Shown here: one piece after another, positions 19,013 through 34,035 of the stretch
How positions within the stretch are numbered: position 1 is the first letter of the stretch
Layout of the letters: each line of letters begins with the position of its first letter
DNA from: an uncultured Bacteroidota bacterium
Lineage (GTDB): Bacteria; Bacteroidota; Bacteroidia; Chitinophagales; LD1
DNA: 37,944 bases
NCBI GenBank assembly: GCA_903861145.1
Contig: CAIOTH010000045.1
Coordinates: 1 to 37,944, forward strand
Direction of reading: 5' to 3'
The notes under the pieces: generated by a model
Told to the model about the DNA's origin: nothing
Database searches by the model: none
Seen by the model: only the letters and a program-made list of their open reading frames with translations
Position numbers and translations under genes: made by a program

Positions 19013-20764
19013 TTACCTGGCTATCGCAAATTTAAGATTGCTTGTGCCATCGGTCGTAAGTAACCTGCAGAAATAAAGACCATCACTTAATCCGCTCAAA
19101 TCAACTGTAATATTTTGGGTGCCACCCACCGGTTCATTTAAAATCTGTTTCAGCATCTTACCACTCATATCGGTAATTTGTAATGATGTTGGTTCCGATT
19201 GCGATGTTTTGACAATTATATGCAATTGATTATTTGCCGGATTAGGAAAAACACTCAATTTATCATCCGCATCAATCTTGCTTATCCCCGTTGTAGAGAA
19301 CAGCGGAATAAAAGGCCCACCGATTGTAGGCACCATAAACAAACCCATGGCCGGGCCATTATTATTGGCTGATGGGGCCAAAAAGCCTGAGGTTAAAAGC
19401 ACAGCACTTTGGCTATTAAAAGCCGGGAAATTAGCGAACCCGGTTTCAAGAGTATTTCCTGATGTATCCTGAACATTTAAAGTATAGAACTCTGAAGGCA
19501 GCGAAACGTAATTGGTCTGGTCAGCATAAGCAACATTGGTTAACAGGTATGGACCACCGGTGGGGATAAGGTTAAGTGGTGGAGCATCAGTAACACCATT
19601 TATCATATAAAAATCAAAATCCGATTGGCTCGACGCACTAAACTCTGCCGGCGATTTTATTAGCACATCAAATGCAGTACTTATACCGCTGGGGTTTGCG
19701 GCAAAGCCACTTTGACTTAACAGGCCCGACGCAGTTGCAATAAAGAACGTATCGCGTGGAAGGAAGAAAGACTTTTGCCAAAACGCATCAGCAACTGAAG
19801 CTGAATTTTTGGGTGCAATGGCCACATCATATTTGGCATACGCGTTGAAAATAATTCCGGGTGTGGCATTTCTAAATCCAAGGTTTGGATATGCCTTAGC
19901 GCTATTAATATAAATATCCAACGAATCGGCCCCTGGATCGGCGCAATTATGCAGCAGTTGAAATCCAGCTGCTTCTAGCGGGAAGGTAATCACCCCGCCG
20001 GTATTTAATAATCCATATAACCCAAAAGCGGGGCCACTGTCATTGGCATATGGCTTTATAAATCCTGAACCAAGAATAAGGATAGAGGTGCCCCCAAGCG
20101 CTGAAAGGTCGACAGAGAAGGTGCCGTAATTTTTTGAGGTATCGGGGCTTAAAACCTGGAACTGGTATTCGTTGTGATGTATTGAATCATTTACCGCAGT
20201 CGATTCGCCATAAACAAAGGTGTCCGGAAAGACCTGGCTTCCGCCCCGATAAATAATCTTAACAGTATCAAGGTCGGTAACTCCCTGCAAAAACCTGAGT
20301 GATACATAACCGGTATCGGGCGCAACACTATCTAATTCCGCCTGCTGAATGCTTATACCGGTGCTTATGTTATCTGGATTTAATTCAAATCCCGATCCTT
20401 GTAAGCCCGAAATAACGAAAGCCCGCCTTTCATCCGGGCTAAGAGTCGTTACTCCTGGGTAGGTTATTGAAAGTATTGAACCATTATCGGGATTGCCATT
20501 TGAATGTTTTAAGTTAACACCGATAGTAAACGGTGAGTCTATCGGGTATTGAATTAACCCCGTTGCCGAATGGAAAACAACATTCGAATCTTCAAACGAA
20601 TAGCCCCTGGTTAAATCTCCCCGGTTAAAATAAAGGTCAATAGTATCTAACGATGGGTCAGCGCTGTTATGTGCTATTTGTATATAGCCTACTTGCTGGC
20701 CGTTCAAGGCGACGACAAGGCAAAAGAAAAAACCGAATAAGAAACTTTTAATAATGCTGCTCAT
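19013..20764 (-). CDS. DUF4397-repeat protein with T9SS type A sorting domain
   Basis: A 583-residue secreted protein: signal peptide 1-23, then several DUF4397-like beta units. Their recurring hallmark is 'xQxxHNSADPxxDxxDLYxN', seen as IQIAHNSADPSLDTIDLYFN and later as QLLHNCADPGADSLDIYIN. Each unit ends in a VxxSGFL-like strand (ILGSGFI, TASGLLS, LTSGFLA). The last 80 residues are a T9SS C-terminal domain (SVFPNPANNQLHI, LQITDMSGKMLKQI, LSDGLYFCRLLTTDG), which directs passage through the outer membrane and usually anchoring to A-LPS. The role is unknown; DUF4397 proteins are often surface or adhesive. Confidence 0.88.
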   Translation of the reverse strand: MSSIIKSFLFGFFFCLVVALNGQQVGYIQIAHNSADPSLDTIDLYFNRGDLTRGYSFEDSNVVFHSATGLIQYPIDSPFTIGVNLKHSNGNPDNGSILSITYPGVTTLSPDERRAFVISGLQGSGFELNPDNISTGISIQQAELDSVAPDTGYVSLRFLQGVTDLDTVKIIYRGGSQVFPDTFVYGESTAVNDSIHHNEYQFQVLSPDTSKNYGTFSVDLSALGGTSILILGSGFIKPYANDSGPAFGLYGLLNTGGVITFPLEAAGFQLLHNCADPGADSLDIYINSAKAYPNLGFRNATPGIIFNAYAKYDVAIAPKNSASVADAFWQKSFFLPRDTFFIATASGLLSQSGFAANPSGISTAFDVLIKSPAEFSASSQSDFDFYMINGVTDAPPLNLIPTGGPYLLTNVAYADQTNYVSLPSEFYTLNVQDTSGNTLETGFANFPAFNSQSAVLLTSGFLAPSANNNGPAMGLFMVPTIGGPFIPLFSTTGISKIDADDKLSVFPNPANNQLHIIVKTSQSEPTSLQITDMSGKMLKQILNEPVGGTQNITVDLSGLSDGLYFCRLLTTDGTSNLKFAIAR

Positions 20765-23541: not shown

Positions 23542-23757
23542 TCAGAAGAACGAACCCATAGGTTTAATGATTTGGCCGCCCTTGGTAACCACAATTATTC
23601 CTGCCAGCAACACAGCACTCAGAAATATGTAAATACTTATACGGAAAAAATTGAGGGATAGTTTTTCAGACTTACCATTAAACCACCAACCTATTAACGC
23701 CGTAGGAAAGAATAGAATTGTCGCAACTATAGCCAGTCTTCTCGCTTCTTCTTTCAT
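23542..23757 (-). CDS. small two-helix membrane protein
   Basis: A 71-residue protein with two hydrophobic helices (about 7-25 and 39-58) separated by WWFNGKSEKLSLNFFRI. Its ATG overlaps the stop of the large membrane-protein gene (ATGA), so it is co-translated as the last gene of the long minus-strand run. I recognise no family. It may be a small subunit or stabiliser of the polytopic protein encoded before it. Confidence 0.6.
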   Translation of the reverse strand: MKEEARRLAIVATILFFPTALIGWWFNGKSEKLSLNFFRISIYIFLSAVLLAGIIVVTKGGQIIKPMGSFF

Positions 23758-25460
23758 ATAGATGGTTTTACGCTATACAAGTAAATAGTCCACCAGCTTT
23801 GCGAATCATTAAACACCTTTTCAAGATGAAGGCCTTGCGATTCGCTGTTTCTGATATCTACAGCCGATATAAGGTATTTACCTCCCATGGCATCAAAAGC
23901 TTTGGCATTAAACGCCAGGTTGTTAACGTGCTTATGCGAAAACTTGTAACAATTAAAGGCCTCATGCTTTATACCTAGCTCCGAGCTAAAAATATAGCAC
24001 CGGTTGCCCCAGCCATCGAAATATTGTGCTATGTCTTCGCTTTTGGCAATTTCGCCTGCAAATATATTTCTGAATTCTTTTTTGTAAGGCAGGCTATAAA
24101 CCGACATTAAACCATCAAGCGTATAAAACCCGTTGTACTGAGCTACGCTTGGGCTAATTCCGAAACTGGCAACGTAATAACTATCCAGTGGCTTGCCAAT
24201 GTATTTTTCGATTTCACCAAATTGCTTAGGGGCGTTATAGTTCTCGAAGTTCGGAAATTTTTGATGTCCGGTTAGGGCGCGATAGTTGTGTACCACTTCA
24301 TCATTACCGGCCATGGCTACAACAATCTGCATTAACAGAAGTGGTAGAACAAAAGATTTCAAAACGGGAGAGCTCTGCATTTTGTACAGAGCCAGGGCAA
24401 ACCCCACAAACCATAAAAACGGAAGTAAAACACTAAAACGGTTAAAACGAAAACTTTTCATAAACGAAAGTTTATCGCTTAACCAGTACTCCGGGTAGCT
24501 ATAAAAACCCTGGAAGAGGCATATCAGGATGATAGCAACAAAAATGGCAAGTATGAGTGGTTCCGATTTTTTAATGGTTAGCAAAATGGCAATAAACGAA
24601 ACTGAGGTTATATAAATAGCGATGTGGTAATGAGTGGTAAAAAATACGAGAAAAGACTCGCCGAGCGATTGAACGACATTGGGCTTTTCAAACATGTAAA
24701 GATTGTATGCCATGCGATGAGATACAAAACCGTTGTTAGAAAAGGTGGCTACAAGCATTGAGAAATTGACCCCAAAAAAACCGACCGCTAACAAAATTGC
24801 ACCGGCTACGTAGTGTTTGCCAAGGTTAGACTTGTATATAAAGTATAATCCCATAACCCCAATTAAGGTCAAAAAAGGAATGGCAAGCCATACTATACTC
24901 GAGTAATAAGGGAAAAGTATAATGATAAGGTAGCTTACTTTTAAGCGCCGGGTGCTATTGAAGTTCAAAAATGCCCACAGCAAAAGCGGTTGCCCCAATA
25001 CCGAAATACCGAACGGAATAAAAGCTGATAGCACACTAAATGCCAGTGCCACCAGCAGCACTATAAACCGGTTCTTACGCTCTTTAATAAAATAATCACG
25101 CAATAGCAAAACCATGCCCGTAAAACCGATAATGCGAATAAGGAAACTGCTAAGGATATATGCTTTATAAGCACCAAACCACTGCACCAAAACCATATTG
25201 AGTGATAACCCTGCCGGGTAAAGGTCGCGGAGAACGCCTTTCATTATTTGCGGTATTATAGTGTAGGTGTGAAAGTCAAAGGCCATGTGGCTATCGGCCA
25301 AAACCTTCAGCCATATCCATTCTCCCTCTAATGTATCATGAAGGCGGATGTAAGAATTTGAGCCAAGTAAAAGAAGCGGCATCACGTATACTACAACAAC
25401 CAAAAGTATCAGCCACTTAGCTAACCGGTTGTAATTATCATTTACGTTTATAGATGCCAT
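23754..25460 (-). CDS. large polytopic membrane protein (possibly DUF6044-like)
   Basis: A 568-residue protein from the ATG at 25460 (an in-frame start at 25487 adds nine residues). Roughly 11-12 hydrophobic helices run from residue 12 to about 400, followed by a C-terminal extramembrane domain of about 170 residues (NYNAPKQFGEIEKYIGKPLDSYYVASFGISPSVAQYNGFYTLDG and beyond). The early loop NSYIRLHDTLEGEW contains a conserved-looking acidic pair. The layout is that of GT-C-like glycosyltransferases/YfhO-like membrane proteins, and it also recalls the DUF6044 family. As part of the sugar-acid gene run it could move a sugar from a lipid carrier, but this is inference from topology and context. 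Confidence 0.72.
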   Translation of the reverse strand: MASINVNDNYNRLAKWLILLVVVVYVMPLLLLGSNSYIRLHDTLEGEWIWLKVLADSHMAFDFHTYTIIPQIMKGVLRDLYPAGLSLNMVLVQWFGAYKAYILSSFLIRIIGFTGMVLLLRDYFIKERKNRFIVLLVALAFSVLSAFIPFGISVLGQPLLLWAFLNFNSTRRLKVSYLIIILFPYYSSIVWLAIPFLTLIGVMGLYFIYKSNLGKHYVAGAILLAVGFFGVNFSMLVATFSNNGFVSHRMAYNLYMFEKPNVVQSLGESFLVFFTTHYHIAIYITSVSFIAILLTIKKSEPLILAIFVAIILICLFQGFYSYPEYWLSDKLSFMKSFRFNRFSVLLPFLWFVGFALALYKMQSSPVLKSFVLPLLLMQIVVAMAGNDEVVHNYRALTGHQKFPNFENYNAPKQFGEIEKYIGKPLDSYYVASFGISPSVAQYNGFYTLDGLMSVYSLPYKKEFRNIFAGEIAKSEDIAQYFDGWGNRCYIFSSELGIKHEAFNCYKFSHKHVNNLAFNAKAFDAMGGKYLISAVDIRNSESQGLHLEKVFNDSQSWWTIYLYSVKPSI

Positions 25461-25524
25461 GATTTGCGAAGTTAGTAATAAGGGCAACTTATTAAACCTT
25501 ATGGTACAAGGTGATGCCTAACTT

Positions 25525-25899
25525 CTAACTTTTGCTGTAATATTTTAATCCGACGATACCAACCAACAGCACACCCATAAACAGGATTTGTTGTACGTTA
25601 TAGGCTTCGCTAAAAACAAATACGTCTAATAATTTTGAGAAGATAAGTGCCAGTGCCATCCAAACCGCAAAAGCAGTTGATGCGGGAATGCCTTTCATGG
25701 CCATCGAAAAAAAGTAAATGTTGCAAAGGCCGAAAACAATGTAACCAACCAACGGCATAAGTGTTTTCCACGGAGCAACTTCTGAAAACATGGTTGATAC
25801 AGCTATGCCGCCTATTGCCTTCATACTTAAAAATTTGAGGCTATACACCCAGCAGGCTTCAAATACAGCGGCAATAACTATATATAGCCAGTAAATCAT
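25525..25899 (-). CDS. SMR-type small membrane transporter
   Basis: A 124-residue, four-helix protein of the small multidrug resistance superfamily. Glu14 in VFEACWVYSLK aligns with the essential Glu14 of EmrE, and Trp80 in IPASTAFAVW with its conserved Trp63. It is about 15 residues longer than EmrE, the extra length lying in the loop and helix after the first helix (about 25-45). The gene overlaps the hydroxylase gene upstream by four bases. Given the sugar-biosynthesis context it may be a flippase-like subunit (as ArnE/ArnF are) instead of a drug pump, but the kept Glu14 argues for genuine SMR-type proton-coupled transport. Confidence 0.82.
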   Translation of the reverse strand: MIYWLYIVIAAVFEACWVYSLKFLSMKAIGGIAVSTMFSEVAPWKTLMPLVGYIVFGLCNIYFFSMAMKGIPASTAFAVWMALALIFSKLLDVFVFSEAYNVQQILFMGVLLVGIVGLKYYSKS

Positions 25900-26798
25900 T
25901 TAGCTGCTTTTGAAGTATCTGAGGCCGATTCCTTAAAGAAATTCACCAGGGCATTTGGCCATTCAACATAGGGCTTTATACCCAGGTTATGCTCCACCTT
26001 TTTTACATCGAATCGTTTAAAGGCAAAAGCGGTTTGCAAAAAGAACTCGCGCGGATATTCGTATGGAAGGCCGTATTGTTGGGGCTTCAAAAACTCGTAT
26101 TTAAAAGGACTTAAACCGGGTAAGAAACCGGTGCCAAAAATCCAATCCCAAAAAGCAAACTTGGTTGAATAGTTTTTGTAAAAAACCTCGCGGTGGTTAG
26201 AGTGATGCCACTGGTGCATCTCGGGCCCGTTAATGAAATATTGAAGCTTACCACTACGCACGTCAACGTTTGAGTGTATCCACATACCCCAGGTGGCGTC
26301 AAGTAATGCTTTGATTGGTACAACAATGGCAGCCGTCTTTACATCCAACAAAATTATGATGGGTGCAAACTCAATAGTTTGGTTGATAATTATTTCGATG
26401 GCATGTGAGCGCGACCCTGCTAACCAGTCAACGGTTTTTACCGAGTGGTGGGCCTCATGCGTGCGCCAAAGAAAGGTATTATGCTGTAACCGGTGAAACC
26501 AGTAAATGTAAAAATCGTGGGTAACAAGAAACAACAACACCAAAGCCCAAATGGGCCAGCTGGAAATGTAACCACTGTCGGCAAGGCCCAATGCGGTTTT
26601 AGCCGGCGCAATAATCCAATCGAAAATGAGAATCTTTAAAAAGTAACTCTGAAAAATAGTGTACCAAAAAAAGTCAAGCCAAAAGCCTTCGCGGAATAAT
26701 TTTAAGCCTTTGGTGTACGGAAAAAACCTTTCGAGCGTAACCATTAAAGGTGGCCAGCAAAAAAGTATTATGGTTGTAATTAATTCCGTGTGACTCAT
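25896..26798 (-). CDS. fatty acid hydroxylase / sterol desaturase superfamily protein
   Basis: A 300-residue membrane di-iron enzyme. The histidine clusters are visible: HDFYIYWFHRLQH (HxxxxxxxHRxxH), HEAHHS, a later HSNVD, and MHQWHHS, the set that holds the di-iron centre in this superfamily. Four to five membrane helices surround them. These enzymes hydroxylate or desaturate lipid acyl chains, sterols or carotenoids. The substrate cannot be read from sequence. The gene begins 30 bases after the NeuB-type synthase and overlaps the SMR gene, so it belongs to the same run; hydroxylation of a lipid anchor or an acyl substituent on the sugar would fit. Confidence 0.88.
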   Translation of the reverse strand: MSHTELITTIILFCWPPLMVTLERFFPYTKGLKLFREGFWLDFFWYTIFQSYFLKILIFDWIIAPAKTALGLADSGYISSWPIWALVLLFLVTHDFYIYWFHRLQHNTFLWRTHEAHHSVKTVDWLAGSRSHAIEIIINQTIEFAPIIILLDVKTAAIVVPIKALLDATWGMWIHSNVDVRSGKLQYFINGPEMHQWHHSNHREVFYKNYSTKFAFWDWIFGTGFLPGLSPFKYEFLKPQQYGLPYEYPREFFLQTAFAFKRFDVKKVEHNLGIKPYVEWPNALVNFFKESASDTSKAAK

Positions 26799-26828
26799 AT
26801 GTTCGCCCTCGGGCTTTAAGCCGCAATA

Positions 26829-27731
26829 TTAAGGGTTTTCAACCTTTACGGTTATCTCTTTAACTCTTCTTAGTTTGGCGCGTTGTCCTATTTCACTATC
26901 GTATAGTTTTTTCACTCCATCCCCCAGTGCAGTTTCTACATCGCGAATATCCTTTACTAACTTGGCCATACCTATCGGTTCAACAGACGCAGCCTGATCG
27001 CTACCCCACATTGCGCGGTCAATTGTAAAATGTCTCTCAATAAAATTAGCACCCAACACAACAGCCGCAACGGTTGTTGCCAAACCTGTTTCGTGTCCCG
27101 AGTAACCAATTGGCACTTTTGGGAAAAGCTTTTGTAATTCCGGTATCATCTTCAAATTCAATTGCTCGAGCGGGCATGGATAAGCCGATGTTGAATGCGC
27201 AATCATGATGTTATCAGTACCAATCTCATCTACTGCATGAAATATTTCATTCATGGTTGACATACCGGTTGATAAGATGAGTGGCTTACCGGTTGCTTTC
27301 TTTTTCTTCAATAAACTAATATCAGTTAACGAAGCCGATGCTGCTTTATACAACAGCGGGTTAAACTTCTCCATAAAATCTACCGATGGTTCATCCCAGC
27401 ACGAAGCAAACCAAATGATGTGCTTTTCTTTACAAAACTCATCAATCAACGCATATTCTTTTTCGGCGAACTCAACTTTGTGGCGGTAGTTAATATAGCT
27501 CATGCGGCCCCACGGCGTATCGCGCATAATTTCCCACTGGTCACGTGGCGTGCAAATTTCGGGTGTACGTTTTTGAAATTTAACTGCGTTGCAACCTGCT
27601 TTGGCAGCTTCTTCAATAAGTTTTAATGCCGTTTTTATTGAGCCATTATGGTTAATACCAATTTCGGCTATAATAAAACACGGTTCATCAGGCCCTATTG
27701 CATGATGTCGGTCAATAGCTATTGTATTCAT
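26829..27731 (-). CDS. NeuB-family PEP-condensing sugar acid synthase without SAF domain
   Basis: A 300-residue enzyme of the N-acetylneuraminate synthase family, which joins phosphoenolpyruvate to an aldose to give a 2-keto-3-deoxy acid. TIM-barrel motifs: AEIGINHNG (22-30), AGCNAVKFQKR, KAASASLTDISLL, LSTGMSTMNEI, STSAYPCP, GYSGHETG and NFIERHFT. NeuB enzymes are about 335-350 residues with a C-terminal SAF (antifreeze-like) domain; this one stops at RAKLRRVKEITVKVENP, just where SAF would begin. The SAF domain of NeuB supplies an Arg contacting the N-acetyl group of ManNAc, so the acceptor here probably lacks it. Four bases separate it from the phosphatase gene. Confidence 0.9.
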   Translation of the reverse strand: MNTIAIDRHHAIGPDEPCFIIAEIGINHNGSIKTALKLIEEAAKAGCNAVKFQKRTPEICTPRDQWEIMRDTPWGRMSYINYRHKVEFAEKEYALIDEFCKEKHIIWFASCWDEPSVDFMEKFNPLLYKAASASLTDISLLKKKKATGKPLILSTGMSTMNEIFHAVDEIGTDNIMIAHSTSAYPCPLEQLNLKMIPELQKLFPKVPIGYSGHETGLATTVAAVVLGANFIERHFTIDRAMWGSDQAASVEPIGMAKLVKDIRDVETALGDGVKKLYDSEIGQRAKLRRVKEITVKVENP

Positions 27732-27735
27732 GGGT

Positions 27736-28239
27736 TTAGTTTTCGGTTCTTAAATGAATAATTAATTCAGCCAGTTCGCGGAAGGCGCCTTCACCTCCGT
27801 TTGCTTTGCAGATGTAATGTGCAATTTTTTTTACGGGTTCAAAAGAATCAGCCGGGCAGGCGCTAAAACCTGCAATTTCTAAAACTTCAATATCATTGGC
27901 ATCGTCACCAATGTAAGCAATTTCATCAACCGATAAGCTATGTTTTTCAAGAATTTGAATCAATGTTTCTCTCTTTTCAAGCGAGCCGAGATAGATATGT
28001 TGCATTTTCAGTTTCTCACCACGCCGCTTCACTATCTCCGAATTTTCACGCGTCATAATACCGGTATCAATACCGCATAGTTTTCTTAAACGCTCAACAC
28101 CCATACCATCGCGTAGCGAGAATTTTTTTAGCTCTTCTCCATCCTTTGAATAATATGCGCAGCCGTCAGTCAACACACCGTCGCAATCTGTTAGCAACAG
28201 TTTTATTTTTTTAGCTCTGTCTTTTAAGGTATCGCTCAT
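27736..28239 (-). CDS. KdsC-type HAD phosphatase
   Basis: A 167-residue cap-less HAD hydrolase of the KdsC class, which removes the phosphate from Kdo-8-P, Kdn-9-P or related acids as tetramers. Nucleophile Asp18 and acid/base Asp20 sit in TDCDGVLTDG; later motifs are MTREN (Thr) and YIGDDANDIE. The C-terminal tail AHYICKANGGEGAFRELAELII has the GGxGAxRE feature that closes the neighbouring active site in KdsC. Placed directly before the NeuB-type gene, it implies that the condensation product is phosphorylated. Confidence 0.9.
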   Translation of the reverse strand: MSDTLKDRAKKIKLLLTDCDGVLTDGCAYYSKDGEELKKFSLRDGMGVERLRKLCGIDTGIMTRENSEIVKRRGEKLKMQHIYLGSLEKRETLIQILEKHSLSVDEIAYIGDDANDIEVLEIAGFSACPADSFEPVKKIAHYICKANGGEGAFRELAELIIHLRTEN

Positions 28240-28242
28240 AAT

Positions 28243-29046
28243 TTACATGGCGGTCCAGCCGCCGTCTACAATTAAATTAGCACCGGTCATATAAGCCGAT
28301 GCATCGCTTGCTAAAAAAACAATTGCCCCTTTATAGTCGCTCGGCACCGCCATGCGCCCAAGCGCAGTTTTGCGACTGTAATTAGCAACAAAAAATTCAT
28401 CCTGGTTATTTTCAACACCACCCGGCGATAGGGTATTTACCCTCACCCCTTTTTTACCCCAATAAGCCGATAAAAAACGCGTAAAGTTTACTACTGCACC
28501 CTTAGTGGCAGGATAAGCCGGTGATTTATAAAACGTTTGTTCTCCCTTTTCATTTTGATAGATAGACTGGTCGGGGCCAACAATGCCGTAGGTCGAAGCA
28601 ATATTGATTATGCTGCCTTTACCTTGGTTTGCCATCACCGTGCCGAATACCTGCGAACACAAAAACACACCGGTAACGTTAACGTCCAGCGATTTTTGCC
28701 ACATGTCCAATGGATAGTTTTCGAACATAGATTTTTCGGCAGCCATGGCCGGGTTCTCGAACATATCATTAATGGCGGCATTGTTTACCAGCACATCAAT
28801 GCTGCCGTACCGTGCGATGATTTTATCGCGTGCATCTTTCAGCGATTTTTCATCAGTAACATTTGCGCTTATCCCCAGGTGCTGTGTGCCAAGTGTTGCG
28901 GCAAATTTTACCGCTTCGGTTTCAGTCACATCTAATACAACAACATTGGCACCGGCTTCATTAAGGGCACGGCAATGCTCTTTACCTATCAGGCCACAGG
29001 CACCGGTAACAATTGCTGTTTTATTTTTTAAAGAGAATAACTCCAT
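28243..29046 (-). CDS. SDR family oxidoreductase of the sugar-acid cluster
   Basis: A 267-residue classical short-chain dehydrogenase. The nucleotide-binding motif is TGACGLIG (a variant of TGxxxGxG), with LVNNAAIN, catalytic Ser151 (NIAST), Tyr178 and Lys182 (YPATK), and a C-terminal LIVDGGWTAM. Asp39 after strand two (VVVLDV) suggests NAD(H) over NADP(H). A 16-residue insertion before the Tyr (DQSIYQNEKGEQTFYKSP) lengthens the substrate loop. In context it would oxidise or reduce a hydroxyl of the sugar, for instance producing the ketone or aldehyde that the adjacent aminotransferase uses. Confidence 0.9.
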   Translation of the reverse strand: MELFSLKNKTAIVTGACGLIGKEHCRALNEAGANVVVLDVTETEAVKFAATLGTQHLGISANVTDEKSLKDARDKIIARYGSIDVLVNNAAINDMFENPAMAAEKSMFENYPLDMWQKSLDVNVTGVFLCSQVFGTVMANQGKGSIINIASTYGIVGPDQSIYQNEKGEQTFYKSPAYPATKGAVVNFTRFLSAYWGKKGVRVNTLSPGGVENNQDEFFVANYSRKTALGRMAVPSDYKGAIVFLASDASAYMTGANLIVDGGWTAM

Positions 29047-29052
29047 GTTGTT

Positions 29053-30366
29053 CTAATACTTCGTTTTTCTGAAAACCATTTCTAACACTTCCCCCTGTAA
29101 AAAAGTTTCAGGTTTGCCGCTGGCTACTGCTTCTTTTAAAATAGGGAATACCTCAGAATAGGCATTTAATGTAGTTTGAATATCCTGGTCAGTATGGCTA
29201 AAGCTCATGTTGTGGAATCCACCCCATAGCACGCCGCGTTTTATCATTTCCTGTTGCATCAACGTTTTTAATACAAGCGGGTCACCGGCGGTAGCGTTAA
29301 AGTTGATAATGCTTCTGCAATCAAAACCGGTGCATGATGTAATATCATTCACCCCCGCTTTTGCTGCGCGTTCGTTATATCCGTCTTTAATTATTTTGCC
29401 TTTTGCTGCTAAGTAGGCAGGTACATTTTTCTCTTTTATTTCGCTGATGGTGGCAATAGATGCCGCTAAAGAAAGCGCTTCGCCACCAAATGTTGTGAAG
29501 ATAAATACGTCTTGCTCGCCTCTGCTAATCACATCTTTCCGGCCGGTTAAAAAAGATACCGGCATACCGTTAGCTACTGCTTTCGAGAAACAAGCTAAAT
29601 CAGCCTTGATGCCAAAGTATTCTTGCGCACCACCTAAGGCAATTCGAAATCCGCTCCACATTTCATCAAAAATCAATAGTGAACCGTTCTCTTTTGTTAG
29701 GCGCGCTACCTCTTCCAAAAATCCATCTTTAGGAGCTTCAAAAACGTAAGGCTCTAATATTACGCAGGCGACATCTTTATCCAATACTGCTTTCAGAGAT
29801 TCGATGTTGTTGTATTGAAATGTTTTGGTCAGCGCACGCGTTTCTTCGGGGATACCTGCGTTGCGTAATGTAGTGCCAATGTACCAATCGTGCCAGCCGT
29901 GGTAACCGCAACAAACTACTTTACTACGACCAGTGTGTGCCCTTGATAAACGAACTGCAGCAGTTGTAACATCGCAACCCGTTTTTGAAATACGGATGCT
30001 CTCTGCATTAGGCACTACTTCGTGCAACAATTCGCAAACTTCATATTCCAATCGGTGCATCAGCGAGAAGGTAATTCCTTTTTCAAGCTGAGCTTTAATT
30101 GCATTATCTACTTTTTCGTAGCAGTAGCCTAACGAAATAGGGCCAATGGCCATATTATAATCAATAAACTCATTGCCGTCCACATCCCATACGTGCGAAC
30201 CTTTTCCACGCTCCAGGTAAACCGGTGCTATTCCTCTTGAATACTGACCAGGGCCTTTGGCCAGGGTTTGAGTAACCGGGTGCATTATTTTTTGAGCCTT
30301 CGCTAAAATTTCCTGCGACTTTGAAATTTTAGGCAGGCCATGCGTTGATGCGGTATTGTTAGACAT
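29053..30366 (-). CDS. class III aminotransferase, glutamate-1-semialdehyde aminomutase-like
   Basis: A 437-residue PLP enzyme. PLP Lys262 is in CFSKAVANGMP, with Asp234 in LIFDEMWSGFR contacting the cofactor nitrogen. The N-terminal gate LWDVDG-type segment is SHVWDVDGNEFIDY, and SKTGCDVTTAAVRLSRA resembles the GSA aminomutase phosphate-cup region. It is not hemL: the body matches the GSA-like enzymes found in glycan loci and the neighbours are sugar genes. Class III enzymes prefer terminal aldehydes or ketones next to a functional group, so it probably installs an amino group on the sugar acid or its precursor. Confidence 0.88.
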   Translation of the reverse strand: MSNNTASTHGLPKISKSQEILAKAQKIMHPVTQTLAKGPGQYSRGIAPVYLERGKGSHVWDVDGNEFIDYNMAIGPISLGYCYEKVDNAIKAQLEKGITFSLMHRLEYEVCELLHEVVPNAESIRISKTGCDVTTAAVRLSRAHTGRSKVVCCGYHGWHDWYIGTTLRNAGIPEETRALTKTFQYNNIESLKAVLDKDVACVILEPYVFEAPKDGFLEEVARLTKENGSLLIFDEMWSGFRIALGGAQEYFGIKADLACFSKAVANGMPVSFLTGRKDVISRGEQDVFIFTTFGGEALSLAASIATISEIKEKNVPAYLAAKGKIIKDGYNERAAKAGVNDITSCTGFDCRSIINFNATAGDPLVLKTLMQQEMIKRGVLWGGFHNMSFSHTDQDIQTTLNAYSEVFPILKEAVASGKPETFLQGEVLEMVFRKTKY

Positions 30367-30383
30367 ATTGGGTCCTTTAAATT

Positions 30384-31328
30384 TTAATTATGAGCAGTCA
30401 TTAATGAGGGCTTTGATTGAGCCACGCCGTCTTCTTTTATTTTTTCCGAAACTTTTGCTGCAATCTGCGCACCGGTGAAACCTTCGTAAGTCAAAACTTC
30501 GCTTAACAAACCTGGCCTAAACCATCTTTCGTTCAGTGCAAATGGCAATACGTTAGCAGTAGTTCTGTTTTTAAGAAATATCTCAGCCATAATGCTGTAC
30601 AAGCCACCGGTTAAAAAGTGGTCTTCAATAGTTACCAGCAATTTTGAGTTGGCAGCTACTTTCAATATCGCGTCTTCATCTACGGGTTTTAATGAGCGCA
30701 TGTTTATCAATCCCACTTTTAAGCCTTGTTCCTCCAAAATTTCTTTGGCTTTATAGGCTTGTTCAAACAACATGCCGTAAACTAACAAGGTTACATCTTC
30801 GCCTTCACTTATGATCTCAGCTTTACCGGTTTTAAACGGTGCATGTTCAATAACACCGGGCCTTGTGTTTAACCTTACATAAGCAGGATAAGGCGAAGCC
30901 CAAATTTCGGGCAACATAGCCAACATATCCTGCTCATCAGCCGGGCAAAACACAGTCATTCCGGGTATGGTACGCATTAGAGCCACATCTTCAATGGCCT
31001 GGTGTGTGGGGCCGTTTCCGTCTGATAAAAAACCGGCAATCCAACTACTTAGTTTAACCGGTAGTTTGCCAATACCAACATCGGAGCGCACAAACTCATA
31101 AGCCCTATAAATAAGAAAGGTAGCCAACGCATGGCAAACCGGTATACGGCCGCGCAAAGCCAAACCAGCGGCCATGCCAATCATGTTTTGCTCGGTAATG
31201 CCCGTATCAATAAAACGAGGGCCTAATATTGCAGGCAAATCGCGGATAACGGCGCGGTTTTCGGCGGTCATTACCACAAAGCGCTCATCGGCCAGTGCAG
31301 TTTGCTTAATCAGTTCCTGGTAATTCAT
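30384..31328 (-). CDS. transketolase C-terminal subunit (split transketolase)
   Basis: A 314-residue protein holding the pyrimidine-binding and C-terminal domains of transketolase. Glu46 in DTGITEQNM is the catalytic TPP glutamate; GFLSDGNGPTHQAIEDVALMRTIPG is the conserved pyrimidine-domain loop and LVYGMLFEQAYKAKEIL starts the C-terminal domain. It partners the N-terminal subunit encoded one base upstream. Split transketolases transfer two-carbon units between sugar phosphates, and many sit in specialised pathways, as here, away from the central one. Confidence 0.92.
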   Translation of the reverse strand: MNYQELIKQTALADERFVVMTAENRAVIRDLPAILGPRFIDTGITEQNMIGMAAGLALRGRIPVCHALATFLIYRAYEFVRSDVGIGKLPVKLSSWIAGFLSDGNGPTHQAIEDVALMRTIPGMTVFCPADEQDMLAMLPEIWASPYPAYVRLNTRPGVIEHAPFKTGKAEIISEGEDVTLLVYGMLFEQAYKAKEILEEQGLKVGLINMRSLKPVDEDAILKVAANSKLLVTIEDHFLTGGLYSIMAEIFLKNRTTANVLPFALNERWFRPGLLSEVLTYEGFTGAQIAAKVSEKIKEDGVAQSKPSLMTAHN

Positions 31329-31329
31329 G

Positions 31330-32187
31330 TTATCTCACTATTAAAGTTTCGGAGGTCAATATGGTTTCGTTTTCGCCGTGCAATTCTTTCAATAAACTAT
31401 CTACTTCATCACCGGTAAAGTTGCAGAACCACCTGTCGGCGCGCTCTTGTATACTTGGCAGCCCTTTGCCGCGAACAGTATCTGCAATAATTACGCTTGG
31501 CTTTGTGTTGCTGAACGGAAGCTGAAAGAATGTCTCTTCCAATTGCTCAAAGTCGTGGCCGTTAATGCGCTTTACTTCGCAACCAAAAGCCCGGAATTTA
31601 TCTTCCAAAGGCTCTAATGGTATTAAATCTTCAGTGCGCATGTTGGCCTGAAAATGGTTACGGTCAACCACCAAGGTAAAGTTGTTCATTTTGTAAGCGC
31701 TTGCCACATGTAGGGTTTCCCAAACTGAGCCTTCGTCTAATTCTCCATCTCCCGTAATTACTATCACCCTGTTGTTAGTGCCGCGCATTTTGCAATCCAT
31801 CGCAATACCTAACGAAACAGCTGGCAAATGACCCAAAGAGCCCGAGTGAAATTCGATGCCCGGAACATTGCGGTTAGGGTGCCAATAAATATGGTCGTTT
31901 GATTTGAGGTGATTGTCTAACCTGCTTTTTTCCATCCAACCAATTTCAACAAACATGCCGTATAGCGCTGGTACGTCGTGGCCTTTGGATAACAACAGAT
32001 AATCGCGTGTTGGGTCATCAAGCCTTTCTTTACTGATATTCAAAAAGCCTGAGTACAGAAACACAATCAAATCGGCGCACGAAAGTGAGGCGCCGGTAAA
32101 GCAGCCCCCGCCTGTAGATAAGCGCACAATATGTTCACGCACCTTTAATGCACGTTCTTTTAACTCTTTCAATTTCTCCGAGGTCAT
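31330..32187 (-). CDS. transketolase N-terminal subunit (split transketolase)
   Basis: A 285-residue TPP-diphosphate-binding half. The TPP/Mg motif starts at GDGELDEG (GDG at 146-148) and runs to NNFTLVVDRNH. STGGGCFTGASLSCADLI, LLSKGHDVPALY and FHSGSLGHLPAVSLGIAM are conserved active-site segments. Together with the next gene it makes one full transketolase of about 600 residues. There are four bases between it and the cytidylyltransferase gene. Its role is probably to make or trim the aldose phosphate used by the NeuB-type synthase. Confidence 0.92.
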   Translation of the reverse strand: MTSEKLKELKERALKVREHIVRLSTGGGCFTGASLSCADLIVFLYSGFLNISKERLDDPTRDYLLLSKGHDVPALYGMFVEIGWMEKSRLDNHLKSNDHIYWHPNRNVPGIEFHSGSLGHLPAVSLGIAMDCKMRGTNNRVIVITGDGELDEGSVWETLHVASAYKMNNFTLVVDRNHFQANMRTEDLIPLEPLEDKFRAFGCEVKRINGHDFEQLEETFFQLPFSNTKPSVIIADTVRGKGLPSIQERADRWFCNFTGDEVDSLLKELHGENETILTSETLIVR

Positions 32188-32191
32188 AAAA

Positions 32192-32986
32192 CTAGATGTG
32201 TTTGGTTTGAGCTTCAGTAACAGTCTTTAATTCGTTCATGTGGTTTCTATACCAATTAACGCCAGCGTATTTTTCGTTAATGGCTGCAATTTCGGGATTT
32301 AAGCCCAGTAAATCCAATATGTCGCTTAAGCCAAAGTTGGGCTTGGTTGGATACAGCTTTTCGTATACAGTTTTAATAAAGGTAAAATCTTCGGCATAAT
32401 CAATGGTAAACCGGTGGCTCATCGAGTAATCGAGCCCTGTTTCCCAGGCTACATTGCCAATCCTGAACTTCTCAGGATGCTCCCAAATATAAGGCGTGGT
32501 GTGTTCGCGCTCAAAGTCCTTTTGGGCCTCTTTCCATGCTGTTTCAAGTGTTTTGAAGCTCATCACTTCCACATCATTCCCATCGGGATAGGTGGCGGGA
32601 TGCAGATTGCTTACAAAATCGAAATTATGATCCAGGTAATATTGAAGAACCTTATCAATAACCTGTGGGTCTATTAACGGACAATCAGAAGGTATTTTAA
32701 CTACGGCATCAGCGTCAAACAGCTTAGCAACATGGTAATGGCGGTCCAGAAGGTCGAGAGAACTACCGCGATAGCACAATATACTGTTCTCTTTGCAGAT
32801 GTTTTCAATCGAGTCATCTTCGGCATCAAGAGTGGTTGCCACTACAATGGTACCGGTTAAAGAAGCGACCTGTATGCGCTCAATCATTCTCACCAGCAGC
32901 GTTTTGCCAAGTATCTCTTTGCTTACCTTACCGGGCAAACGCGAAGAACCTGAACGAGCTTGGATAACTGTTACAATCTTTTTCAA
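32192..32986 (-). CDS. SpsF-type cytidylyltransferase (CMP-sugar activation)
   Basis: A 264-residue nucleotidyltransferase of the SpsF/COG1861 group. The N-terminal signature IQARSGSSRLPGK (8-20) binds the nucleotide; KIPSDCPLIDP holds the metal-binding Asp; and YPDGNDVEVMSF and HTTPYIWEHPEKF are typical of SpsF. The group activates sialic-acid-like or other sugars, usually with CTP. Coupled to a NeuB-type synthase and a KdsC-type phosphatase, it is the expected activator of the 2-keto-3-deoxy acid. It overlaps the glycosyltransferase-like gene by four bases. Confidence 0.88.
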   Translation of the reverse strand: MKKIVTVIQARSGSSRLPGKVSKEILGKTLLVRMIERIQVASLTGTIVVATTLDAEDDSIENICKENSILCYRGSSLDLLDRHYHVAKLFDADAVVKIPSDCPLIDPQVIDKVLQYYLDHNFDFVSNLHPATYPDGNDVEVMSFKTLETAWKEAQKDFEREHTTPYIWEHPEKFRIGNVAWETGLDYSMSHRFTIDYAEDFTFIKTVYEKLYPTKPNFGLSDILDLLGLNPEIAAINEKYAGVNWYRNHMNELKTVTEAQTKHI

Positions 32987-34035
32987 TTGAACGAGGGGTT
33001 TAAATTCAGCTGACGCTCATTTAACCGAGACTTGAATTGCTTTACAAACTCGGTGCCTTTACCGTTAAACTCCATATAGCGGCTACATATTTCGGCTATC
33101 TTTTCAACCGTAGTTCCACCATTTTGCATTGGTGTAAGGCGCTTTAACTCTTCTACATCAAAGTAAGAATGAACCGGTTTGCCCAATACAATACCTAAAT
33201 AAACCAGGGTTGACCATTGGGTTATTAGTTCACAGCTATTAGCTACCATGTGGTTTGAGTTGCCATCGGTAAAAATAAGACTATCGGCTGGCGCTACCGA
33301 CTTTATTTCAGCAACCGCACGTTCAAATGCTTCATTAGGATGTAGTTTAAAAAGCAACTTTCGTCCCGCGGCAATCTTCACACAATTCTTTAAAAAGGCC
33401 ATGCGGTCGTCCGAGCCATAAGTCTCGCGGCTATCAGATGTAGCCACCATCACATAATCGCGGTGCGGGAAGTCGTTATTTTCAAACTGCTTAATGTTAT
33501 CAAAATTGATGATACCCGTGGTTATCATTTTGTTGGGATCGCTACCCATTTTAGTCAGGAAATCGTGATAACCCTCTGACCCAACACAATAAATATCGCA
33601 CAGATTTGATGAGCCATTCAGCGAGGTTCCCAAGGCAAAGTACCGAGGAATCCCGATAGCCTTTATCAACTTGGTGCGAAAGGTTACTTTATCAATCATC
33701 CCCTCCTGTATCCAAACGGTTTTGCCCTTTCTCAGCTTACGCGGCACTATCAAATCGTTACAAAAAACGGTCATATCGTAGTTGTTCAGCCGGGCACCAT
33801 AATCCGATTGCAATCCATTATCAACTAAATACTTATCTCCCTTACGCTTAAACTCGCCATCCATAATGCTATGTTCAACAAAGCCCAGCTTTAAAACCAT
33901 TTTCTCGAAACCATAGTCGGGATAAAACTGGCTAAACCAGCAGTCATAATCATCCTTTAAAAATGAGGAGATTTGATGCATCTGGCTGGTTTGGTTAGGA
34001 GAACCAATAATGAACAGAATCTTTTTCTTAGCCAT
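32983..34035 (-). CDS. GT-B-like glycosyl/glycerophospho-transferase, probable sugar-acid transferase
   Basis: A 350-residue soluble protein, first gene of the run. KKILFIIGSPNQTSQ begins a Rossmann-like half. The second half has LLFKLHPNE (227-235) and ELITQWSTLVYLGIVLGKP (269-287), which resemble the KxHP and xTxxSSxxxDxxxxxKP motifs of CDP-glycerol glycerophosphotransferases and polysialyl/capsule transferases that use CMP- or CDP-linked donors. I cannot place it in a named family. The four-base overlap with the cytidylyltransferase suggests it uses that enzyme's product. Confidence 0.72.
   Translation of the reverse strand: MAKKKILFIIGSPNQTSQMHQISSFLKDDYDCWFSQFYPDYGFEKMVLKLGFVEHSIMDGEFKRKGDKYLVDNGLQSDYGARLNNYDMTVFCNDLIVPRKLRKGKTVWIQEGMIDKVTFRTKLIKAIGIPRYFALGTSLNGSSNLCDIYCVGSEGYHDFLTKMGSDPNKMITTGIINFDNIKQFENNDFPHRDYVMVATSDSRETYGSDDRMAFLKNCVKIAAGRKLLFKLHPNEAFERAVAEIKSVAPADSLIFTDGNSNHMVANSCELITQWSTLVYLGIVLGKPVHSYFDVEELKRLTPMQNGGTTVEKIAEICSRYMEFNGKGTEFVKQFKSRLNERQLNLNPSFN

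Follow-up and report, generated by a model that had tools for sequence, protein, structure and literature searches.

Gene content of the locus

The window analysed here is the whole 37.9-kb contig CAIOTH010000045.1 (37,944 nt), part of the 4.7-Mb genome, labelled G000, of an uncultured Bacteroidota bacterium. It carries a run of twelve open reading frames (ORFs), all on the minus strand and spanning positions 34035 down to 23542, most of which belong to a cassette that may make and transfer an amino-modified sugar acid. The eleven larger ORFs were submitted to a family scan, and ten of them matched a family above its cut-off, the exception being gene 1. In gene order the features are:

32983..34035, minus: gene 1, GT-B-fold protein (GT), probable CMP-sugar transferase (350 aa; predicted structure, motifs)
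32192..32986, minus: SpsF-type cytidylyltransferase (264 aa; PF02348, CTP_transf_3, 114 bits, cut-off 22.6)
31330..32187, minus: transketolase (TK)-like N subunit, TKN (285 aa; PF00456)
30384..31328, minus: transketolase-like C subunit, TKC (314 aa; PF02779 and PF02780)
29053..30366, minus: class III pyridoxal phosphate (PLP) aminotransferase (AT), similar to glutamate-1-semialdehyde aminomutase (GSAM) (437 aa; PF00202, 150 bits)
28243..29046, minus: short-chain dehydrogenase/reductase (SDR), putatively NAD-type (267 aa; PF13561)
27736..28239, minus: KdsC-type HAD phosphatase (167 aa; TIGR01670, 147.2 bits, cut-off 106.95)
26829..27731, minus: NeuB-type phosphoenolpyruvate (PEP) synthase without SAF domain (300 aa; PF03102)
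25896..26798, minus: fatty-acid-hydroxylase-family (FAH) membrane protein (300 aa; PF04116)
25525..25899, minus: SMR/EamA small transporter (124 aa; PF00893)
23754..25487, minus: DUF6044 membrane protein, co-directional, outside the conserved cassette (PF19510, 471 bits)
23542..23757, minus: 71-aa ORF with a four-base overlap at the end of the DUF6044 gene

Four-base overlaps are found at three junctions, GT/SpsF (32983–32986), FAH/SMR (25896–25899) and DUF6044/small ORF (23754–23757), and the spacers at the remaining junctions are 4, 1, 17, 6, 3, 4, 30 and 37 bases.

Conservation of the cassette

Searching 395 genomes drawn from the phylum with NeuB gave a match in 240. By hand count, about 138 of the 395, G000 included, hold a close homologue (E below 1e-90, ~62–72% identity), and this group is well separated from other NeuBs at ~35–42% identity. 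Loci for comparison came from a scan of named genomes, which yielded 69 (including Mucilaginibacter, Flectobacillus, Spirosoma, Arcicella, Chlorobiales, Anaerolineae and Gastranaerophilales), and from 60 further long stretches around NeuB matches, hand-chosen to span families, one of which (L046) was an ordinary-NeuB control. ORFs were called with our own script (longest ORF, greedy); because it misplaced some genes in several loci, gene order was counted with tblastn. Two of the 129 loci lie outside this count, their NeuB not exceeding 250 bits: L046 (212 bits, SAF-bearing) and L118 (151 bits).

The genes GT-SpsF-TKN-TKC-AT-SDR-NeuB were found in this order on one strand in 73 of the 127 loci with NeuB over 250 bits, a count that includes 59 hand-picked loci and is not a population frequency. 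The same order without the split TK was seen in 13 loci, NeuB with at most HAD and hydroxylase in 26, and other arrangements in 15, several of which are short and ended by contig ends (L056, L059, L075, L077, L088, L094). Among the 73 full loci, HAD accompanies the seven genes in 65, the hydroxylase in 65, SMR in 45 and DUF6044 in one. When the ORFs of the 129 loci were clustered, the ten cassette families each occurred in 55 to 125 loci, and the next commonest family in 15. The observed run is genuine, and it is conserved far more than chance would allow.

An earlier interpretation, which we call the sequence-only reading, had described a twelve-gene run on one strand with short spacers and four-base overlaps. 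Such a run exists, but the family counts define the conserved unit as ten genes, from 34035 to 25525 with the SMR gene last; the DUF6044 gene and the 71-aa ORF are local. That reading had also proposed conserved co-occurrence as its own check, which the 73 loci bear out, and its remark that dehydratases, epimerases, acetyltransferases and DegT aminotransferases are missing holds for all ten conserved families. Full-text literature searches returned no description of the cassette, which is thus apparently undescribed; in the parts of PMC12342839 that were accessible, transketolase and nonulosonic are mentioned without relation to each other.

The NeuB-type synthase and its phosphatase

The NeuB protein belongs to the NeuB family (PF03102, 256 bits against a cut-off of 22.1). 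It falls below the equivalog models for sialic acid synthase (TIGR03569, 247.2 vs 399.65) and pseudaminic acid synthase (TIGR03586, 214.6 vs 340.25). In a hand-numbered alignment all metal and PEP residues of the meningococcal enzyme (E25, K53, Q55, K129, S213, H215, E234, H236) are matched, K53 and H236 being taken by us to belong among them, and T110 is replaced by Ser. For the rest, the residue list follows an excerpt of PMC6795526.

The positions of F288 and Arg314 fall beyond the window protein, which ends after the barrel at 300 aa. No SAF domain was matched in it with a domain library that does find SAF in the NeuB of L046. According to the same excerpt, Arg314 is an essential residue that the partner subunit contributes through its SAF domain and that contacts N-acetylmannosamine (ManNAc) (PMC6795526), and 3-deoxy-octulosonate-8-phosphate synthase is described, in the parts of the sources consulted, as having no SAF domain (PMC6795526, PMC7591256). 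Because the domain with this ManNAc-contacting arginine is absent, the acceptor of the cassette NeuB is likely to carry no N-acetyl group.

HAD and NeuB are fused into one 478-aa ORF in L081 and L085 (domains checked for L081), which suggests that HAD acts on the NeuB product. We rejected the idea that the pair is a substitute route to 3-deoxy-D-manno-octulosonic acid (Kdo), as KdsA and KdsB-like genes are present alongside: a KdsA match over the cut-off was found in 18 of 22 genomes, with G000 just missing it (307 vs 314 bits) and KdsA divided between two pieces in one Chlorobiaceae genome (G052). In 21 of 22 there is a CTP_transf_3 gene with a high score (at least 157 bits), which we read as KdsB-like. 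An ordinary pathway to the nonulosonic acid Kdn, with unrelated enzymes riding in the operon, would agree with a HAD that scores close to the KDN-9-phosphate phosphatase model; however, in many families NeuB is accompanied by AT, SDR and, in most cases, TK, and we regard this explanation as very improbable.

A probably reduced system in Chlorobiaceae

We took family f19 to be Chlorobiaceae, partly because L065 and L066 group with it in one NeuB clade of a tree made by a quick method and having long branches. All 20 Chlorobiaceae genomes searched hold a close NeuB and also gene 1 (42–46% identity). For the SDR, only two of the 20 gave any match at E 1e-30 (39–40% identity), and a cassette-like SDR was absent from all 20 at this limit. 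The best AT match was 31–34% in 19 genomes and 39% in one; the cassette AT was likewise absent from all 20 genomes, the second AT search having a limit of E 1e-40. HAD immediately precedes NeuB in all seven Chlorobiaceae loci examined, none of which has other cassette genes near the pair, and a CTP_transf_3 gene directly adjoins gene 1 in all six genomes searched with that model. Four positions separate Chlorobiaceae NeuB from the cassette enzymes in a group-specific way: 66, 163, 181 and 279 (6 vs 90 rows). The occurrence of NeuB and HAD without the cassette AT and SDR suggests that the synthase and the phosphatase can work without the amino-sugar steps, and this pattern would place SDR, AT and TK as later tailoring steps.

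An LPG_synthase_TM membrane protein is encoded directly upstream of gene 1 in two Chlorobiaceae loci (L186, L193) and in L190, with an acyl-CoA-ligase-type gene further upstream (by Pfam for L193, by eye in the others). Chlorobium is a source of an aminoglycosphingolipid that may contain neuraminic acid; a citing paper confirms the aminoglycosphingolipid only (PMC11762602), and the lipid is not used here as evidence.

The dehydrogenase, the aminotransferase and variant loci

In the SDR, Asp39 (after the second strand), Ser151, Tyr178 and Lys182 are present in 91 of 91 rows. An Asp after the second strand is the usual sign of NAD in this family, and the protein is consistent with an NAD-type enzyme suited to oxidation. 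The AT keeps the PLP lysine; compared with HemL, it has a shorter gating loop and different substrate segments (88 rows). It does not reach the cut-off of any of the five GSAM models listed, with 382.6 vs 486 for PRK06209 and 234.3 vs 527.3 for hemL. A role as the haem-pathway enzyme was rejected on these cut-offs and because a separate 438-aa homologue, at 34% identity, is encoded in G000.

The cassette is not always contiguous. In all seven f30/f17 genomes with NeuB apart (G288, G005, G079, G133, G087, G125, G137), homologues of three other cassette genes were found elsewhere in the genome, with identities of 64–69% for TKN (in two pieces in G288), 63–65% for AT and 59–64% for SpsF; in G087 and G137 some of them lie within ~10–20 kb of HAD-NeuB. 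The separation of the HAD-NeuB pair from TK and AT in f30 genomes could mean that the system makes two building blocks, a sugar acid from NeuB and HAD and a second amino compound from TK, AT and SDR, joined to the acid or to the acceptor lipid. Yet SDR, HAD and NeuB are kept together in L032 and L035, where AT is distant; this arrangement links the SDR with the NeuB product and makes two separate building blocks quite unlikely.

None of the 13 genomes with a TK-less cassette has a TKN match above 40%. Eleven of them contain a fused TK of ~650–665 aa at 35–40% identity; in the exceptions the fused TK is split over two frames (G361) or only a 30% match is present (G019). In G389 (L154) a fused TK lies inside the cassette, at the TK position.

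Three Chloroflexota loci (L106, L107, L116) and L061 represent a further variant, SDR-HAD-NeuB with neither the cassette AT nor TK at the locus; a Gfo/Idh-type oxidoreductase family is common to L061, L107 and L116. In three genomes the cassette copy of NeuB is joined by a further, solitary one that also has no SAF domain (G035, L123/L124; G047, L125/L126; G333, L149/L150), and these solitary copies form one clade in the tree. The NeuB of L069, recorded as Cellulophaga sp. BC115SP, is nearly identical to that of Flectobacillus (one clade, end branches ~0.005–0.016), and the genus label of this record is probably wrong. Elsewhere in the window, positions 19013–20764 (minus strand) encode a DUF4397 protein carrying a type IX secretion sorting tail.

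The transketolase-like pair

Aligned to E. coli TktA, the cassette TK keeps the thiamine diphosphate (ThDP) residues H66, H100, the GDG motif, N185, E411 and H473. The donor and phosphate residues H26, H261, R358, S385, H461, D469 and R520 are not kept in the two window proteins, which have F, W, a gap, M, I, N and T in their places (at H261, F instead of W when aligned with the Carboxydothermus TK). Among the cassette sequences, His26 corresponds to Phe30 in 72 of 72 TKN sequences, His261 to Trp253/Phe254, each in 72 of 72, and Asp469 to Asn105 in 68 of 68 TKC sequences. We take His26 and His261 of TktA to lie near the donor C3 hydroxyl and four of the other residues to contact the phosphate, and we assume the ThDP residue roles likewise. 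The cassette TK is thus probably a working thiamine pyrophosphate enzyme with another donor and, judging from these residues, probably a non-phosphorylated substrate, although loss of the canonical residues does not prove loss of phosphate binding.

A second split pair in G000 (L180:1943–3658, contig G000:C127) also lacks the phosphate residues but keeps the histidines; the gene after it reads, by eye, like an NAD-dependent epimerase. The fused TK of L154 and four fused TKs from TK-less genomes have lost Ser385, His461, Asp469 and Arg520 and keep both donor histidines, with Lys at R358 in the latter four. The suggestion that TK-less cassettes simply use an ordinary transketolase is weakened, as these fused enzymes are neither cassette TK nor clearly housekeeping.

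In the sequence-only reading, TK supplied an aldose phosphate, SDR and AT turned it into an amino-aldose phosphate, NeuB added PEP, and HAD, SpsF and gene 1 followed. All these genes do lie in one run, the loss of both donor-side histidines could suit an amino-ketose donor, and the scheme resembles the aminoshikimate route to 3-amino-5-hydroxybenzoic acid (AHBA). Against it, a TK without canonical phosphate-binding residues is a poor candidate for the source of an aldose phosphate, and all 20 Chlorobiaceae genomes have NeuB and gene 1, with HAD before NeuB in the loci examined, while none has the cassette AT or SDR. We therefore consider this order of steps unlikely.

SpsF and gene 1

In L046:7869–9614 (G107:C70) a 581-aa ORF consists of CTP_transf_3 fused to NeuB and SAF domains, and it adjoins a HAD over the KDN-9-phosphate phosphatase cut-off and a second SpsF-like gene. 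G000 contains only two CTP_transf_3 genes, the KdsB-like one and the cassette SpsF, in line with the role of activator that the sequence-only reading gave to SpsF. Together with the HAD-NeuB ORF, these observations argue that NeuB, HAD and SpsF act in one line.

Gene 1 is predicted by AlphaFold with a pLDDT of 90.5 and has a GT-B fold. Its nearest folds are UDP-GlcNAc 2-epimerases/NeuC (Z about 15.5 to 17.6; best 283 aligned, 3.9 Å), followed by GT-B transferases (PglA, Z 15.4; MurG, 14.6; TagF and TarL, 13.8). A profile search of the PDB gave a TagF-like polymerase (E 0.00035) and a single match due to chance, and a profile comparison with WecB gave no meaningful match. A weak Epimerase_2 match is seen in 32 of 33 family members, as compared with the CDP-glycerol transferase family in 9 of 33.

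These neighbours and the weak Epimerase_2 match would fit a NeuC-like epimerase or hydrolase that provides a mannosamine-type acceptor, the product then being a relative of neuraminic acid. In the window protein, however, the Epimerase_2 match stays below the Pfam cut-off. Relative to WecB, His213 is replaced by Asp or Ser and the Glu131/PEE motif has no counterpart (D95 and E117 are ambiguous); we take D95, E117, E131 and H213 to be the catalytic residues of UDP-GlcNAc 2-epimerase. Moreover, the SAF domain that could bind an N-acetyl group is missing from the NeuB. We consider a NeuC-like function improbable.

Bacterial sialyltransferases share the motifs D/E-D/E-G, HP and S-S/T. In 33 gene 1 rows the motifs QEGM, KLHPNE and S-T are invariant or nearly so, and QEG, KLHPN and S-T resemble the sialyltransferase set, the first being Q-E-G; no sialyltransferase family is among the folds listed. 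We are reasonably confident that gene 1 encodes a CMP-sugar transferase.

Proposed pathway

From the gene content, conserved order, co-distribution and residue changes described above, and from the reduced Chlorobiaceae system, we infer the substrates, products and order of steps, including the sugar, the TK step and the acceptor. SAF-less NeuB would condense PEP with a phosphorylated aldose without N-acetyl, most simply mannose-6-phosphate, and the KdsC-type HAD would take off the phosphate. The NAD-type SDR would then oxidise one hydroxyl and the class III AT convert the carbonyl to an amine; either before or after this amination, the split TK-like enzyme would alter a non-phosphorylated substrate by two carbons. 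SpsF would form the CMP-sugar, which gene 1 would transfer; the hydroxylase and the small transporter may belong to the lipid or export side. The proposed step order is the gene order reversed, which is suggestive only. On balance, and with moderate confidence, we favour this reading of the ten-gene cassette, in which NeuB acts first and an amino-modified, CMP-activated keto-deoxy sugar acid is transferred to a membrane or envelope acceptor. The core of the sequence-only reading, namely that the cassette leads to an aminated, CMP-activated keto-deoxy sugar acid, is supported.

Several observations weigh against the scheme. The role of TK in it is unexplained, and 12 of the 13 loci without split TK hold no TK within the cassette. 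Five loci (L106, L107, L116, L061, L143) have SDR and NeuB with no cassette AT at the locus, and the genome of L107 holds no cassette AT match above 40%, so that in some cases the SDR can do without this AT. In NeuB, meningococcal Asn74, Glu134 (presumably a residue of note) and Asn184 are not kept but are Thr, Ser and Ser, and the HAD misses the KDN-9-phosphate phosphatase model NF058599 (160.7 vs 180). The modelled fold of gene 1 is closest to epimerases, although the GT-B fold is common to many transferases as well. Finally, Chlorobiaceae NeuB differs at positions 66 (W/R) and 181 (T/N), and its acceptor may differ too. In the tree, Chlorobiaceae branch within the cassette-bearing set as neighbours of f17, a family that does have the other genes in its genomes; given this position, the Chlorobiaceae state probably is a system reduced by loss and not an ancestral core.

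As for the TK, it is possible, though we doubt it, that NeuB, HAD and SDR produce the free acid in its keto form, that the split enzyme attaches a two-carbon unit to it or takes one away, and that AT aminates it. If so, a branched or chain-altered amino keto-deoxy acid would be widespread in Bacteroidota envelopes and in the other families sampled; we know of no described member of such a group. Sugar-acid synthesis involving a transketolase whose active site has been rebuilt would be new chemistry.

Comparison with known systems

Bacteroides thetaiotaomicron makes KDN via a KDN-9-phosphate route. The cassette shares with it a NeuB-type synthase, a KdsC-like HAD and a CMP transferase, but the cassette HAD lies under the NF058599 cut-off by the scores given above. 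In L046, where HAD exceeds that cut-off, NeuB keeps its SAF domain and no cassette SDR, AT or TK was matched. In the accessible part of a study of the Serratia KDN capsule (PMC9000132), nothing was found on the route.

The proposed pathway is alike to the Kdo8N pathway of Shewanella oneidensis in that a keto-deoxy acid would be oxidised first, then aminated and then CMP-activated. In the later steps of Kdo8N synthesis, amination is carried out by KdnA, a DegT-type aminotransferase, and is followed by CMP activation, whereas the cassette has a class III AT and also a TK. KdnB is an iron-type dehydrogenase, in contrast to the SDR of the cassette; its assignment as Kdo 8-oxidase follows an excerpt of PMC5125639.

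The best PDB matches of both TK halves are to the split TK of Carboxydothermus (PDB 6yak/6yaj), which has the same two-subunit layout; its histidines in NSGHPG and WHG align with Phe in the cassette TK. In the aminoshikimate pathway a split TK makes an aminated acceptor for a PEP-dependent synthase. In both, a split TK is found together with genes for an aminotransferase, an oxidoreductase and a PEP-dependent synthase, a likeness of gene content, but the AHBA product is a benzoate precursor and there is no CMP activation.

Sialic, legionaminic and pseudaminic acid loci, including B. subtilis sps, have NeuB and activation by SpsF or NeuA in common with the cassette, and genomes carrying the cassette are easily mistaken for sialic-acid producers. 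In contrast to these loci, the cassette NeuB is under both equivalog cut-offs given above and lacks the SAF domain, and the NDP-sugar enzymes of such loci are not among the ten conserved families. The features that set the cassette apart from the three pathways, as read from its proteins, are the SAF-less NeuB and a TK that keeps the cofactor residues and has lost the donor and phosphate residues. There is a modest chance that the product is a new sugar class. The cassette may encode a way of making an acidic amino sugar that is widely conserved, has apparently not been described and dispenses with the NDP-sugar enzymes of sialic-like pathways, and it is carried by cultured hosts such as Mucilaginibacter and Flectobacillus.

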